A stretch of 50,413 bases of DNA from Pontibacterium sinense. GTDB lineage: Bacteria > Pseudomonadota > Gammaproteobacteria > Pseudomonadales > Balneatricaceae. A program made the translations under genes and the position numbers. Below are positions 32,964-37,741 of this stretch, in pieces. The notes under the pieces were generated by a model, which did no database searches, was not told where the DNA came from, and saw only the letters and a list, made by a program, of their open reading frames with translations. How positions within the stretch are numbered: position 1 is the stretch's first letter; the number at the start of each line of letters is the position of its first letter. The stretch is taken from the NCBI RefSeq assembly GCF_015209595.1, contig NZ_JADEYS010000030.1:1-50413 (forward strand). The letters are read 5' to 3'.

Positions 32964-34154
32964 TTAGCCTAGCTTCATCAAAATTTTCACCGATTCACGC
33001 AGGCGTTCAAACGCTTCCGCCAGACGCTGCACTTCGTCATTCGAGTGAATAGTAATGGCGGTATCAACCTCACCTTTACTGAGACGATCCGCCGCCTGAG
33101 TCAGGTAGATCAGCGGGTTGGTCAATGAACTGGAAAGCATTTTTGCGATCACGAAGGCCATCACCACCGCGAGTACAACGAACACTGCCAGTGCAATGAC
33201 AAAGCTGTCCAGCAGCTTCAAGACAACCGACTTCGGCGCAATGGCAACCAGCCGACCCATTTGGTGCTGATTACTTTCGTCTGCAAACAAAGGTGAAGTA
33301 GCGACCAGATCATCTGACAGGTCTATCTGTACAATCCCGTCAGCCGCCAGTACTTCACGGGACAGCATAGGCCGCTCCGTTGACATCGACTTGCCGTGAT
33401 TCAAGTCGCGTGCACTGCCCCACTCCAGGCCTGTATCGCTGTTAGCCAGGTAATAACCGTGATCATCCACCAGCGTAAACTGAATACCGTTGTCAGTAGA
33501 AGCCGCTTTGATCTGATTCAGGAAAGCGGATGCATCCACGTTCAGAATCAACACACCCACCAAACGATTACCCACGGCAAACACCGGCGTTGCAAAGCGG
33601 ATCGTCGGCCGTACCGGGTCTTCCAGTTCCCCGTCTTCACGGTTCAGATCAATCGGCGAGATGTAGACTTGCCCAAACTCCAGCTTCGCGGCTTCGCGGA
33701 AATACAGACTGTTGCTTTTGTCACGCAGCTGCTCCGGCTGTAAGACACGACTGAAACCTTCGTCTTCGTTGTGTTCAATACGAATCAGCTCATTGCCATC
33801 TGCACCGACAAAACGCAGCTGATTATAGATACGGCGGTTTTTTGCCAAACTCAGGAAATCACGAGACAAGCTACGACCGTTTACATCCAGAATTTTCTGA
33901 TCCTTGATAACCAAGGCACGACCGTACTGGAACATCGATGCAGAATCACGCAGATAACTCAGGTCACCCGGTACATGTTTCAGCACCCCAAATGCGGACC
34001 CTGACAACAGCTGTACCTGACGTTCCAGGCTGCTAACACTCGCGCTTTTCAGGGCATCGGTGGTGGAGTAGTAAACGTAACCCGCGAGAATCAGTACGGG
34101 TAGCAAAGCTACCAGAATCAGGGCTCGCTCAACTTTGGACTTGATCGTTTTCAC
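32964..34154 (-). CDS. Cache-HAMP membrane sensor lacking an output domain
   Basis: This 396-aa protein has TM1 at about residues 12-32, then a periplasmic region of about 280 residues that looks like a double-Cache ligand-binding domain (EGFSRVLQPEQLRDKSNSLYFREA, GQVYISPIDLN, IRFATPVFAVGNRLVGVLILNVD). TM2 is at about 318-342, followed by a HAMP domain (about 343-396, SSLTNPLIYLTQAADRLSKGEVD...HSNDEVQRLAEAFERLRESVK). It stops right after HAMP, with no kinase, methyl-accepting or cyclase domain. It lies 14 bases after the roadblock-like gene of the downstream GTPase cassette, so it probably signals to or from that GTPase module (inference). Confidence 0.88.
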   Translation of the reverse strand: MKTIKSKVERALILVALLPVLILAGYVYYSTTDALKSASVSSLERQVQLLSGSAFGVLKHVPGDLSYLRDSASMFQYGRALVIKDQKILDVNGRSLSRDFLSLAKNRRIYNQLRFVGADGNELIRIEHNEDEGFSRVLQPEQLRDKSNSLYFREAAKLEFGQVYISPIDLNREDGELEDPVRPTIRFATPVFAVGNRLVGVLILNVDASAFLNQIKAASTDNGIQFTLVDDHGYYLANSDTGLEWGSARDLNHGKSMSTERPMLSREVLAADGIVQIDLSDDLVATSPLFADESNQHQMGRLVAIAPKSVVLKLLDSFVIALAVFVVLAVVMAFVIAKMLSSSLTNPLIYLTQAADRLSKGEVDTAITIHSNDEVQRLAEAFERLRESVKILMKLG

Positions 34155-34168
34155 CGCGTTTCTCCGTT

Positions 34169-34834
34169 CTATCCTTTGGGCAGTGATGTAGTGGCACGAC
34201 GGATGAACTCCGCCCGTTTGTCTTCGTTGTCGATAAATTCAGCCAGCCGCCCACACAGATCGGTTAACGGTTCACCGGCGGCTTGCCAGCTGTTTTGAGC
34301 GCGGCCAAATACAACCCGTGCCGCCGGACCTATCTGCTCAGCCAGCAGCAACTTGAGTTTCTCCATGTGCACGTTCAGCACGTCTGCCGGTAACGCCTCG
34401 GCAACGGCGATCGGCGCGCTATCCGCTTGCACTTCCGGCTGTTCTTCGGCAGATGCCAACTCAACAGGCATCGGTGACGGAACAGATAGGGGGACACTGT
34501 CACTCAACGCATCTAATAATTTGGCGGTTGCAGAACGTACAGCGGTTTTAATCAGTGCCAAGTTGATATTTTTATCCGCCAGTAATGCCAGTACCGCGCC
34601 ATTTTCCAGCCAGTACCCAATCATCAGGTTCTCTTCCAGCTCAATATGCAGTTCACGATGATCCCGCTGCATGCCTTCAACCCCCATAAAGATCTGGGTC
34701 ATGACCTTGGCCATACCAGTCAGGTTGTCATTGAGAATCGAAGGAAAGGTTGAGGCTTTAACCGCCTCCTGATGGATAACACACCCGTGTTGCACACCGC
34801 CCAGCATTTCCAGATCTTTCAGAATGGATTGCAT
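34169..34834 (-). CDS. Roadblock/LC7-like regulator, copy 1
   Basis: From the Met at 34834 the protein is 221 aa. Residues 1-115 resemble a roadblock/LC7 domain: MQSILKDLEMLGGVQHGCVIH, a hydrophobic core around NLTGMAKVMTQIFMGVEG, LHIELEENLMIGYWLENGAVLALLADKNINLALIKTAVRSA. A Pro/Ala/Glu linker (about 118-145) leads to a helical C-terminal region with IGPAARVVFGRAQNSW. The start lies 4 bases after the stop of the GTPase-roadblock gene, so they are coupled. Its paralogue is at 36096-36767. By analogy with MglB it may regulate or bridge the GTPase; this is inference. Confidence 0.8.
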   Translation of the reverse strand: MQSILKDLEMLGGVQHGCVIHQEAVKASTFPSILNDNLTGMAKVMTQIFMGVEGMQRDHRELHIELEENLMIGYWLENGAVLALLADKNINLALIKTAVRSATAKLLDALSDSVPLSVPSPMPVELASAEEQPEVQADSAPIAVAEALPADVLNVHMEKLKLLLAEQIGPAARVVFGRAQNSWQAAGEPLTDLCGRLAEFIDNEDKRAEFIRRATTSLPKG

Positions 34835-34838
34835 GCCC

Positions 34839-35807
34839 TTAACCCCACTGCAACAGATCATCAAGTTGCTGACGCAAAATCCGCACGGAGGCACGGTTGG
34901 AGGATACAACCCCCAGCACCTGCTCTTCCTCTACGTACACTGAAACGTTGTCATTGCGCTCACTCTTCAGCACAACGCTGCGTACGCGTCCAAGATCAGA
35001 GACCTGCTCGAACACCGGCACAATCCCTGCCATAAAACCAATAAAATCATCCAGCTCCGTGTCATCCAGCGATGAGGTCACAATATCGCCCATATCGGTT
35101 GCCAAGGCAGCGCCCTGAACACCCTTGATGTTTAATACGTCATCCACAATGGAATCTTTCATGACAATGTTCTCTCCAAGGTAATCACTGACGGGAGACT
35201 CAGGTGCGGGGGAATCGGCGACACTGCGCTCCGGCGCTTGCTCAGCATCATCCAACAGCTGCTGCCAATCAGCCTGTGCCTCTTCACCGACGAAGTCCTG
35301 CAGTAGCTTGACCAGATCAACCTTGCTGCGGGCATCGATAAAACGGACCTCTGCCTGCAACCCTAACTCCTCAATCCAGCCTTCGTATTCGGCCAGTTTA
35401 GGTTCAGAACGCAGATCCGAGCGGGTCACGCCAACAATCAGTTTCTTACGCGCAATCAGGTTGGAAAACTCCTGCACGTAGTATTTCAGGTCCCTGTAAG
35501 GCGAGGCTCGGGTGTTGTCGATCAACAACACCAGTCCCGCACAATCTGCCGCCAGATCATTGGCCAGCAGATCCCACATAAAACGAAACCGCATCTGACC
35601 GGGGGTACCGTAGAGGTGAACTTTCTGTGAATCGCTTAATGCCAGAGAGCCATAGTCCATCGCCACGGTCGTGGTCGCTTTACGCGCTGCAGTAACATCG
35701 GACACGGCAGCATCAGTATTCAGACTCGGTTTATCACTGAGGACATTAATCGCCGTGGTTTTACCCGCACCCACTGGTCCTGCAAAGATAAGCTTAAGTT
35801 CTGACAT
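34839..35807 (-). CDS. Small Ras-like GTPase fused to a roadblock-like domain, copy 1
   Basis: This 322-aa protein has an N-terminal small GTPase (about residues 1-180): P-loop GPVGAGKTT at 10-18, switch I region ATTTVAMDYG, G3 as HLYGTPGQMRFRFMW (Gly at the usual Asp of DxxG), G4 VTRSD and G5-like IDARSK. This matches the predicted GTPases of COG2229, related to MglA and the CvnD proteins of Streptomyces conservons. After an acidic Pro linker (about 180-210), residues 215-322 look like a roadblock/LC7 domain (VDDVLNIKGVQGAALATDMGDIVTS...RSVVLKSERNDNVSVYV...VRILRQQLDDLLQWG). GTPase and likely regulator are thus in one chain. It is a paralogue of 36770-37741 and the first gene of a three-gene unit. 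Confidence 0.85.
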   Translation of the reverse strand: MSELKLIFAGPVGAGKTTAINVLSDKPSLNTDAAVSDVTAARKATTTVAMDYGSLALSDSQKVHLYGTPGQMRFRFMWDLLANDLAADCAGLVLLIDNTRASPYRDLKYYVQEFSNLIARKKLIVGVTRSDLRSEPKLAEYEGWIEELGLQAEVRFIDARSKVDLVKLLQDFVGEEAQADWQQLLDDAEQAPERSVADSPAPESPVSDYLGENIVMKDSIVDDVLNIKGVQGAALATDMGDIVTSSLDDTELDDFIGFMAGIVPVFEQVSDLGRVRSVVLKSERNDNVSVYVEEEQVLGVVSSNRASVRILRQQLDDLLQWG

Positions 35808-35895
35808 AAGACTGAGTGATCCCGTTAGCGGTCCGTAACTGGCGCTTTCCTCTGCGCCGGTCGTGAATTCAAGACCGCAATAGAAACACTGATGT

Positions 35896-35913
35896 GTGAC
35901 GTTAGTGTGACGA
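35896..35913 (-). promoter_or_regulatory. Pho-box-like repeat upstream of GTPase cassette copy 1
   Basis: On the minus strand TCGTCAC-ACTA-ACGTCAC repeats GTCAC with 11-bp period, as in PhoB boxes. A weak -10 (TCTATT) lies 11 bases beyond. It is about 90 bases before the GTPase start. The match is weaker than at pstS. Confidence 0.4.
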
Positions 35914-35987
35914 ACGAAGAACGATCAGCTGTCCACTGGACACCGCAATACAGCTGAAACACGGGAAATATGCAAAAAAGACAGATA

Positions 35988-36019
35988 TAGAAAAGCCCGG
36001 CATAGGCATACACACCGGG
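35988..36019 (-). terminator. Terminator between the two GTPase cassettes
   Basis: Minus strand CCCGG - 14-base loop - CCGGG is followed by CTTTTCTAT. It separates copy 2 (upstream) from copy 1 (downstream), suggesting two transcription units. Confidence 0.6.
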
Positions 36020-36052
36020 AGGATATTCAGGAGGGAAAACGAATTAGAGGAC

Positions 36053-36090
36053 CTGCGAACGAGTCAGAAACGACTCTGGCCCATTCGCAG
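36053..36090 (-). other. Two-tier stem-loop right after the copy 2 roadblock gene
   Basis: CTGCGAA (36053-36059) pairs with TTCGCAG (36084-36090), and inside it GAGTC (36061-36065) pairs with GACTC (36072-36076). No T-run follows. It may stabilise the mRNA 3' end or be an RNA-processing structure. Confidence 0.5.
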
Positions 36091-36095
36091 CGTTC

Positions 36096-36767
36096 TTAGC
36101 TTCGATGTACCAGCTCGCGGGTCAGAACGACCGCTTCTTTCAGAAAAGTGTCCCGTGACGCACCGGCTTCCAGTTCGACCGCCAGCAACTTGAGTAATGC
36201 GGGCAGCTTATATTTGTTCATACCGTATTGGCGCTTCCACTCGTTGAGGATGCGGTAGAAACTGATCGCACCGGTCGATCCCAATGTATCCACCATCTTG
36301 TCACAGAGCTTATTCATCAGCTCGCTCAGTGCCGCAGCGTCTTCCTGATGTTGCGCCGAACCCGCCTGAATAAAGCCGGTTTCACCCACCGGGAAAACCG
36401 GTTGAAGATCCGATGACGGAAGCTCGGCCGCTTTGCTCAGGGCACCCAAAATACGCTTTTTAACCGATCGTACAGAGGTAGCCATCAATGCCATATTGAC
36501 TCCTTTACGGGTCAACATCAGCAGAGTGCAGTCCTCTGACAGGCGATAGGCCAGCAATAGATGGCGATCCAGTTCCAGATGGAGTTCGGCATAACTGTGG
36601 CCACATTCGTTAATGCCATTGAACAGCTGACTGACCACCTGTTGGCTGCGTACCAGATCCTGCTGCAAGTCCGCCGGACAGGTCGATGCGATCAGGTTAC
36701 CCTGGCAACTAACACCGCTATGTTGCGCACCGCTGTATGCTTCCAGGTCGTGTAAGATACTTAGCAC
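36096..36767 (-). CDS. Roadblock/LC7-like regulator, copy 2
   Basis: This is a paralogue of the 34169-34834 product. I take GTG at 36767 (223 aa, VLSILHDLEAYSGAQHSGVS), because GGGGGT lies 5 bases upstream and the N-terminus then aligns with copy 1. A GTG at 36779 is also open. The N-terminal roadblock-like part contains LHLELDRHLLLAYRLSEDCTLLMLTRKGVNMALMATSVRSVKK. The C-terminal part is helical, with LGSTGAISFYRILNEWKRQYG comparable to the IGPAARVVF region of copy 1. The start lies only two bases after the GTPase stop, so translation is coupled. Confidence 0.8.
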   Translation of the reverse strand: MLSILHDLEAYSGAQHSGVSCQGNLIASTCPADLQQDLVRSQQVVSQLFNGINECGHSYAELHLELDRHLLLAYRLSEDCTLLMLTRKGVNMALMATSVRSVKKRILGALSKAAELPSSDLQPVFPVGETGFIQAGSAQHQEDAAALSELMNKLCDKMVDTLGSTGAISFYRILNEWKRQYGMNKYKLPALLKLLAVELEAGASRDTFLKEAVVLTRELVHRS

Positions 36768-36769
36768 GT

Positions 36770-37741
36770 CTACCCCCACTGCAGCAGATCGTTCACCTGC
36801 TGTCGAATCATGCGGGTTGATGTTTTTCGGCTCGATACCACACCTAAGGCCATCCCTTCCCAGACAAACACCGACAGGTTGTTTTCACTGCGATCACGAA
36901 AGACCACATTGTTCACCTGTCCCAAGGCAGAGTTTTCACCCTGATCCTGCACGATACCGGAGGCCAGTGCGATAAAGTTTTCCAACTGGCTGCCTTCCAG
37001 CGACGATGTAATCAGATCACCGTTAATATCGGTCGCCGCGAGGCCTTCAACACCTTCGATCTTGAGCAACCCATTTACGACGCTCTCTTTGATAACGACC
37101 TGTTCGCCATGATAGTCATCGATCTCAAGGCCCGTATCATCACTGGAAAACTGCAGCCCCTTCTGCTCGGCTTCAGCCATGCGTTTGAGGGTCGACCATT
37201 CATTGTAGTCACTCTGACCTTCCAGAATCAGTTCAACCAGCCCCAATAGATCAGACTTCCGCCGCCCATCGATGAAACACACCGATGCTTCTTTGCCTAG
37301 TTCTTTGAGCAGGTCGTAATACTCATCCTGTGACGGACGTGCGCGCAGATCAGAACGTGTCACCGCAACCACTAAGCGCTTGTCAGAAATTACATTCGCA
37401 AATTCACGGGCGTAGTATTTGAGGTCACGCATGGGGTAGTTGCGGGTATTGTCGATCATCATCACAACACCGGCACAATCTTTGGCAATCTCTTCCGAAA
37501 GCAGCTCCCACATAAAGCGGAAACGTGCCTGTCCCGGCGTTCCGTAAAGGTGAACACGTGATGCTTCGCTCAGCGTAAGACGACCATAGTCCATCGCAAC
37601 GGTGGTAGTCTGCTTACGACGTCCGGTCACATCAGATACCTGAGCCTCTGTGTCCAGGCAATCGATGTCACTGATCGAACGAATTGCAGTTGTTTTGCCC
37701 GAACCTACTGGCCCGATAAAGAGAACTTTATGATTTTCCAT
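36770..37741 (-). CDS. Small Ras-like GTPase fused to a roadblock-like domain, copy 2
   Basis: From the Met at 37741 the protein is 323 aa. It has P-loop GPVGSGKTT at 10-18, switch I QTTTVAMDYG, HLYGTPGQARFRFMW, G4 VTRSD and G5-like IDGRRK. A C-terminal roadblock-like domain follows (VNGLLKIEGVEGLAATDINGDLITSS...VNNVVFRDRSENNLSVFVWEG...MIRQQVNDLLQWG). Large parts align residue for residue with copy 1 across both domains, so the whole two-gene cassette was duplicated. The frame is open upstream to 37780, but MENHKVLFIG matches the copy 1 N-terminus. Confidence 0.85.
   Translation of the reverse strand: MENHKVLFIGPVGSGKTTAIRSISDIDCLDTEAQVSDVTGRRKQTTTVAMDYGRLTLSEASRVHLYGTPGQARFRFMWELLSEEIAKDCAGVVMMIDNTRNYPMRDLKYYAREFANVISDKRLVVAVTRSDLRARPSQDEYYDLLKELGKEASVCFIDGRRKSDLLGLVELILEGQSDYNEWSTLKRMAEAEQKGLQFSSDDTGLEIDDYHGEQVVIKESVVNGLLKIEGVEGLAATDINGDLITSSLEGSQLENFIALASGIVQDQGENSALGQVNNVVFRDRSENNLSVFVWEGMALGVVSSRKTSTRMIRQQVNDLLQWG

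Follow-up and report, generated by a model that had tools for sequence, protein, structure and literature searches.

Rag GTPases inform eukaryotic cells about nutrients. Here we compare with these and other described switches a locus in a 50,413-nucleotide (nt) stretch of DNA from the marine bacterium Pontibacterium sinense (hereafter, the window: one contig, C24, of the 4.64 Mb genome), in which two cassettes each encode a small GTPase fused to a C-terminal roadblock domain and a partner protein with a second roadblock and a helical TAIL domain, and one cassette adjoins a gene for a dCache-HAMP membrane sensor. We propose that the locus probably encodes a receptor-coupled small-GTPase switch with Rag-like architecture, its HAMP receptor signalling in trans via TAIL.

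The Rag GTPases (RagA/C, Gtr1/2) with Ragulator resemble the locus in having a G domain followed by a C-terminal roadblock, and also in having separate roadblock proteins and membrane-tied nutrient sensing (in part PMC10933270). They differ in that the protein described here has GTPGQ as its G3 motif and matches PF04670 below the cut-off, and in that its cassette holds one TAIL-bearing partner gene and a dCache-HAMP receptor. Asgard Rag-like GTPases (LokiRagO, 8yl2, and others) are likewise prokaryotic GTPase-roadblock fusions, one pair of which lies in an operon and is predicted to form a heterodimer; they are archaeal, however, and the available part of that account mentions neither a HAMP receptor nor a TAIL partner (PMC10933270). 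The joining of a GTPase to a roadblock thus has precedents, as the domain order is that of both the Rag and the Asgard Rag-like GTPases.

MglA/MglB systems of Groups 2-3 share with the locus the GTPGQ motif, the D-R pattern in G5, a G4 without lysine and a roadblock gene adjoining that of the GTPase, whereas here one protein combines GTPase and roadblock, a further roadblock protein with TAIL serves as the partner, and the receptor is not a kinase. Actinobacterial conservons (AGPS; CvnA-D) combine a membrane sensor, a roadblock protein and a small GTPase in one operon, but their CvnA is histidine-kinase-like and their proteins are separate, as far as the available text of PMC13343842 describes them; here the sensor ends at HAMP and one roadblock is fused. 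A Pfam scan of the sensor found no kinase domain, and with it not the histidine-kinase-like sensor that marks conservons/AGPS. The first-pass annotation had suggested a new signalling system, and searches of the open-access literature, some of them too broad to be telling, yielded no description of these genes as a set, of receptors that accompany bacterial GTPase-roadblock fusions, or of TAIL paired with HAMP. The locus represents a real, conserved system that has apparently gone undescribed.

Gene order, partner and receptor

All five open reading frames (ORFs) lie on the minus strand: cassette B (36096-37741), cassette A (34169-35807) and the sensor (32964-34154).

36770..37741, minus strand: GTPase-roadblock fusion, copy B (323 amino acids from the ATG at 37741; ORF, GTPase Pfam matches, alignment, G motifs)
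36773..37117, minus strand: C-terminal roadblock domain of copy B (aligned with the family's roadblock domain; profile E 1.6e-40)
36096..36767, minus strand: partner B, roadblock plus helical TAIL (ORF, alignments, profile E 1.1e-68)
36099..36314, minus strand: TAIL domain of partner B (alignment; profile E 3.2e-22, the domain being itself a row of the matching profile)
34839..35807, minus strand: GTPase-roadblock fusion, copy A (322 amino acids; AlphaFold2 mean predicted local distance difference test, pLDDT, 83; Foldseek)
34842..35186, minus strand: C-terminal roadblock domain of copy A (PF03259 at 16.7 bits, below the cut-off; PDB roadblock matches at E 0.002 for the family profile; element order in the model)
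34169..34834, minus strand: partner A, roadblock plus helical TAIL (ORF; AlphaFold2 mean pLDDT 87; MglB matches)
34172..34384, minus strand: TAIL domain of partner A, proposed receptor reader (alignment; neighbour surveys)
32964..34154, minus strand: dCache-HAMP transmembrane receptor ending at HAMP (396 amino acids, GTG start; Pfam, 15-sequence alignment, PDB relatives)
32988..33137, minus strand: C-terminal HAMP of the receptor (PF00672, residues 340-389, E 4.5e-11)

ORFs, spacing and Pfam agree with the first-pass annotation in that there are two same-strand cassettes of a GTPase-roadblock and a second roadblock protein, and that 14 nt separate copy A from the Cache-HAMP protein behind it, which ends at HAMP. 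The ATG of partner A stands 4 nt past the stop of GTPase A, and the GTG of partner B 2 nt past that of GTPase B (a longer start at 36779 is possible); spacing of 2-4 nt would fit translational coupling of GTPase and partner.

The sensor carries PF21623 and HAMP and then stops. Its relatives in the PDB are 2p7j and 3lid for the Cache part and AF1503-type structures for HAMP, and all 15 receptors compared align end to end, ending 2-6 residues past the last invariant residue of the HAMP end. By sequence, the window's sensor conforms to a HAMP-terminated receptor without an output domain. Among 116 genomes of the family, eight sensor matches (E up to 1e-20) were in frames of sensor size and the rest in longer frames.

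The model of partner A has a roadblock fold, and its best structural match is MglB. Nine tails and the tail of a protein from genome G703 (below) had no significant Pfam match (best tail E 0.083), and the best match among 22 partners compared with Pfam had E 0.018 and was to a family without relation to them. Membership of TAIL in a named Pfam family, which we had expected, was not borne out by these scans.

TAIL domains and HAMP-terminated neighbours

We compared 57 cassettes from distinct records, comprising 23 chosen loci and loci from the best 80 of 520 relatives (65 rows, 8 of them dropped as duplicate fetches of the same record). The window's own cassettes and the contig-split cassette of genome G286 stand outside the 57; L087 is within, scored as TAIL without an intact receptor. 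In 49 of the 57 cassettes the partner gene directly follows the fused protein (once, its roadblock remnant), which places the adjacency of GTPase and partner beyond chance. TAIL is present in 26 of these 49 partners; the 23 TAIL-less ones belong mostly to one clade, which we take to be Nitrincolaceae. The receptor adjoins 14 of the 26 TAIL partners and none of the 23 TAIL-less partners. Overall, it stands next to 14 of the 57 cassettes and 43 are without an intact adjacent receptor. The Cache-HAMP gene does adjoin the cassette in other genomes; its absence there would have counted against the first-pass annotation. Neptunomonas, Thiotrichaceae and further gammaproteobacteria carry all three genes together, and the receptor also occurs in a betaproteobacterial metagenome-assembled genome (MAG). 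In L087 (6995-8874), from a betaproteobacterial MAG, the TAIL partner reads in frame into the receptor. Neptunomonas has a single cassette at the same place with the same flanking genes. Several Thiotrichaceae loci have rhodanese and LysM genes behind the receptor; considered as candidate effectors, these may be plain synteny.

The association of TAIL with HAMP-terminated proteins extends beyond the cassette. In a sample of 369 genomes of the class, with up to five candidates scored in each, the receptor profile ran through HAMP in a frame below 430 amino acids three times: in the window's own genome, in G703 and in G972, from which L084 comes. The G703 receptor carries Pfam HAMP and PF21623, and 6 nt behind it starts a 204-residue protein with sub-threshold DUF4388 and a C-terminal TAIL (23.8 bits, where the highest score among 5,000 shuffles was 10.7); G703 yielded no match to the roadblock or partner profiles. 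A TAIL profile, which included the G703 sequence, matched 30 of the 369 genomes. By eye, the matched proteins were kinase-like, cyclase-like, DUF4388-like or roadblock partners. A same-strand neighbour ending at HAMP was found at 26 of the 30 best TAIL loci, or 25 of 28 when two roadblock loci are set aside. Many gammaproteobacteria (L203-L227) have a kinase- or cyclase-like protein that bears one TAIL or two and adjoins a HAMP-terminated receptor, often of Tll0287-like type.

Training of the HAMP model behind these counts used the cassette receptors together with five receptors that adjoin DUF4388-like proteins, so that five of the 26 positives (L199, L210, L218, L221, L223), but not the other 21, fit it by construction. 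Pfam HAMP scored above the cut-off in all 20 neighbours scanned, those of the 26 except L199, L213, L214, L215, L220 and L226; two more neighbours, on the opposite flanks of L210 and L218, were also scanned and lack HAMP. The fetched stretch ends within several neighbours, and the ORFs of L226 overlap by 519 nt, probably because a start was called too early. Among the loci without such a neighbour, L228 appears by eye to be a false TAIL match in a RecN-like protein, and L200 is the window's partner B, whose flank ends short of the sensor. Across a background of 104 loci (1,187 kb), HAMP-terminal ORFs were limited to the 15 cassette receptors, and this outcome did not change with a HAMP model built solely from 20 neighbours of the kinase/cyclase type.

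Pfam types were available for the few TAIL proteins scanned: L205 matched Pkinase and L202 Guanylate_cyc (20.4 bits, cut-off 21.9), and of six proteins called DUF4388-like, two (G703, L218) reached 17.2 bits against a cut-off of 25, and L210, L221, L223 and L233 did not match. Twelve of 15 scanned kinase/cyclase-type neighbours have a Tll0287-like sensor domain, two of them below the cut-off; a Tll0287-type HAMP protein has been studied as a nitric oxide sensor in a preprint whose available part names no partner (PMC12889525). On contig C50 of the window's own genome (L233, 4271-5884), a TAIL protein adjoins a 355-residue dCache-HAMP protein that ends at HAMP, which makes it a second split-receptor pair in P. 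sinense.

Given the receptor at 14 of 26 TAIL but 0 of 23 TAIL-less partners, and the HAMP-ending neighbour at 25 of 28 other TAIL loci, TAIL is the probable link from sensor to GTPase. The MglB-like partner fold, the MglA Group 2-3 motifs of the GTPase (below) and the 43 cassettes without an intact adjacent receptor would also suit an MglA/MglB-like switch in which the second roadblock is merely a GTPase-activating protein, the receptor is dispensable in some lineages and TAIL serves only as a dimerisation helix. We consider this unlikely, as the receptor is present in distant lineages (Thiotrichaceae, others and the betaproteobacterial MAG), for which loss is a simpler account than repeated gain, and as TAIL keeps its HAMP-terminated neighbours where no roadblock is involved.

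The fused GTPase, its paralogues and its loss

Of 40 aligned rows, 39 read GTPGQ in G3 and the remaining one GAPGQ; two threonines of G2 never vary, nor do the D and R of G5 (DGR in copy B), and the listed forms of G4 are without lysine; copies A and B both retain the nucleotide motifs. The marks of MglA Groups 2-3 are GTPGQ in G3, threonine for arginine in G2, a lysine-less G4 and DAR in G5, according to the available part of PMC4316618, and on these motifs the fused protein falls within that definition. It departs from the single-domain length of 150-240 residues, having 322-323 residues with a roadblock. Proteins above 240 residues were excluded from that survey, so fused forms went unclassified there (PMC4316618, available part). 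PF04670 (Gtr1_RagA) reached 14.4 bits on copy B (cut-off 22) and was unlisted for copy A; the protein is Rag-like in architecture and, as judged from sequence, no Rag.

Positions 220-306 of the family profile (A3) match the PDB roadblock structures 9e5c and 3l7h (E 0.0018 and 0.002). Profile similarity and, for copy A, the predicted fold support the C-terminal domain as a roadblock, as the first-pass annotation had assigned it, although PF03259 itself stays below its cut-off; copy B's domain was assigned by alignment and profile. The best whole-chain Foldseek matches of copy A are RagA/RagC and Gtr1p-Gtr2p, with alignments of about 340-350 columns to 6s6a, 3r7w and 8yl2 (template modelling score, TM, 0.36-0.43; root-mean-square deviation, rmsd, ~20 Å), and model and matches agree on the Rag/Gtr order of a G domain followed by a C-terminal roadblock. 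Looking by eye for the Asp-Gly pair of MglB, we found an invariant glycine in the fused domain without a conserved aspartate directly before it, and no evident pair in the partners. Derivation of the fused roadblock from the PF03259 gene of single-domain operons is unsupported (hhalign of ROBA against D4, E 0.19). The partner against D4 gave E 0.06, and ROBA against the partner aligned over 100 columns at E 0.005 but with a probability of 7%; we claim no relation.

The first-pass annotation called the cassette duplicated. GTPases A and B are 50% identical, and in the tree copy A clusters with Neptunomonas receptor cassettes (99/93) and copy B stands apart, which rules out a recent tandem duplication; by sequence, A and B are old paralogues in two paralogous cassettes. 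The tree output warns of long branches, and we do not trust the placement of copy B beside the genome's third GTPase. A tandem pair in Neptuniibacter falls in two clades, one shared with Marinobacterium, and from this clade placement tandem pairing arose at least twice, in the window's genus and in Neptuniibacter. Such adjacent paralogues, a weak fit to pairing, could reflect an obligate heterodimer of A and B through their roadblock domains, like RagA-RagC, and the Rag/Gtr domain order and the predicted heterodimer of the Asgard operon pair (PMC10933270, available part) point the same way. Obligate pairing is nevertheless distinctly unlikely: matching Amphritea and Marinobacterium genomes hold one copy each, the three copies of Neptunomonas G177 lie far apart, and G295, a genome of the window's genus, retains a cassette A that has lost its G domain.

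In G295 (L064, 5311-5679), cassette A consists of a 122-residue roadblock-only remnant of the fused GTPase, the TAIL partner and the receptor, and GTPase B is intact. In G286 (L171, 4707-5051), a 114-residue roadblock-only protein is followed by a TAIL partner that runs to the contig end, the receptor stands at the end of another contig, and a profile search of the genome found no G domain beyond P-loop matches at E 0.05 or worse. As the G domain is lost in these genomes but the roadblock, the TAIL partner and the sensor remain, outputs other than the GTPase are possible. The earlier statement that the receptor's only effector could be the GTPase module therefore goes too far, and HAMP-terminated receptors also stand beside other TAIL proteins. 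The roadblock pair and receptor might even form a core scaffold with an optional G domain, the real effector binding the roadblock platform. We regard this as improbable and favour it least: the G domain is missing in only one of the 57 cassettes, plus G286, the nucleotide motifs are kept in both window copies, and the intact GTPase B of G295 could act in trans. Both roadblock-only proteins also depart from the conserved C-terminal LQW, so they may be decaying. In G295 and G286 a GTPase may act in trans, or there may be none.

The surveys of order, class and phylum sample genomes. Copy A was matched in 42 of 116 family genomes and in 20 of 194 genomes of the order, with both domains covered only within the family; in a phylum sample (up to five candidates scored per genome), 58 of 398 genomes matched, at full length only in the window's own genome, and a match in G656 extended to position 291 across a stop codon. 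A species-genome scan, of which the best 80 of 520 relatives were kept, gave 79 loci; within this list, 31 were fused, 46 were single-domain GTPases and 2 undetermined. Fused proteins occur in Neptunomonas, Neptuniibacter, Marinobacterium and Amphritea, in Leucothrix, Cocleimonas, other Thiotrichaceae and Thiomargarita, and in MAGs of Thioalkalivibrio, other gammaproteobacteria and two betaproteobacteria. L090, a MAG contig labelled Aquificaceae whose cassette groups with Cocleimonas, is possibly a mislabelled or mixed bin. Amphritea-type fused GTPases (L077, L079-L081) adjoin DsbB-like and pyridoxamine-oxidase-like genes, without partner or receptor.

The nearest single-domain relatives in that list (47-54% G-domain identity) sit with a roadblock gene in another operon, a gene cluster of 39 loci; the one such operon scanned, L148, encodes PF03259, PAS and phosphonate-binding-like proteins. 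On C52 (L033), the window's own genome has a similar cluster of PF03259 roadblock, PAS and phosphonate-binding-like genes that lacks a GTPase, and a single-domain GTPase of the family lies on C12 (L032). Flanking genes in the window look ordinary and include a DUF416 gene (Pfam) and, presumably, a histidine kinase and parts of a TRAP transporter, by sequence. One further feature lies between the cassettes:

35996..36019, minus strand: terminator-like hairpin (consensus scan only; such sites are no commoner here than in shuffles, 5 vs 5.2)

A proposed receptor-controlled switch

In the switch that we propose, the dCache-HAMP protein would act as a receptor without an output domain, an outside signal shifting its HAMP helices, and the TAIL of the partner would dock on or read the HAMP end in trans. 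The partner's roadblock would pair with the fused roadblock, roughly in the manner of LAMTOR- or MglB-type proteins, and alter the nucleotide state of the GTPase, whose GTP form would then act on an effector. Cassette B, which has no receptor, may share receptor A or use another HAMP-terminated receptor. Genes, domains, the roadblock folds of copy A, the conserved gene order and the association between TAIL and HAMP-terminated proteins are observed; we infer the HAMP-TAIL and roadblock-roadblock contacts, the direction of control, the ligand and the effector.

Several observations weigh against this proposal. PF03259 scores 16.7 bits on the fused domain of copy A (cut-off 23) and is unlisted for copy B; at TM 0.43 and rmsd ~20 Å, the domain arrangement may differ from that of Rag; the matches listed by VIA-align span the G domain only; and switch I and the linker of the copy A model have pLDDT below 50. 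Twelve of the 26 TAIL partners, plus partner B, have no directly adjacent receptor, eight of the 57 cassettes, those of the Amphritea type, lack a local partner, two Amphritea-type genomes have no partner anywhere in the genome, and the cassette G domain is gone in G295 and G286. L202 and L224, real TAIL proteins, have no HAMP-terminated neighbour even with wider flanks, and L087 is a single MAG with a frameshift further on inside the receptor. All cassette counts across relatives are phylogenetically non-independent.

The arrangement was probably assembled separately from the nutrient-sensing Rag switches of animals and yeast that it resembles. A broader reading, to which we give somewhat less than even credence, is that TAIL generally serves to read HAMP receptors that have no output of their own, so that widespread split receptors signal to any TAIL protein, be it kinase, cyclase-like, DUF4388-like or roadblock. 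The window's cassette would then be the version that drives a Rag-like GTPase, and MglA-type parts would have given bacteria a counterpart of Rag-Ragulator of their own making, under the control of a receptor. TAIL, without a significant Pfam match here, is also found in kinase- and cyclase-like proteins, and the locus offers a concrete candidate answer to what HAMP-ending receptors address, open to direct binding tests. It is also a small, testable bacterial system with the Rag domain order and a receptor in the same cassette.

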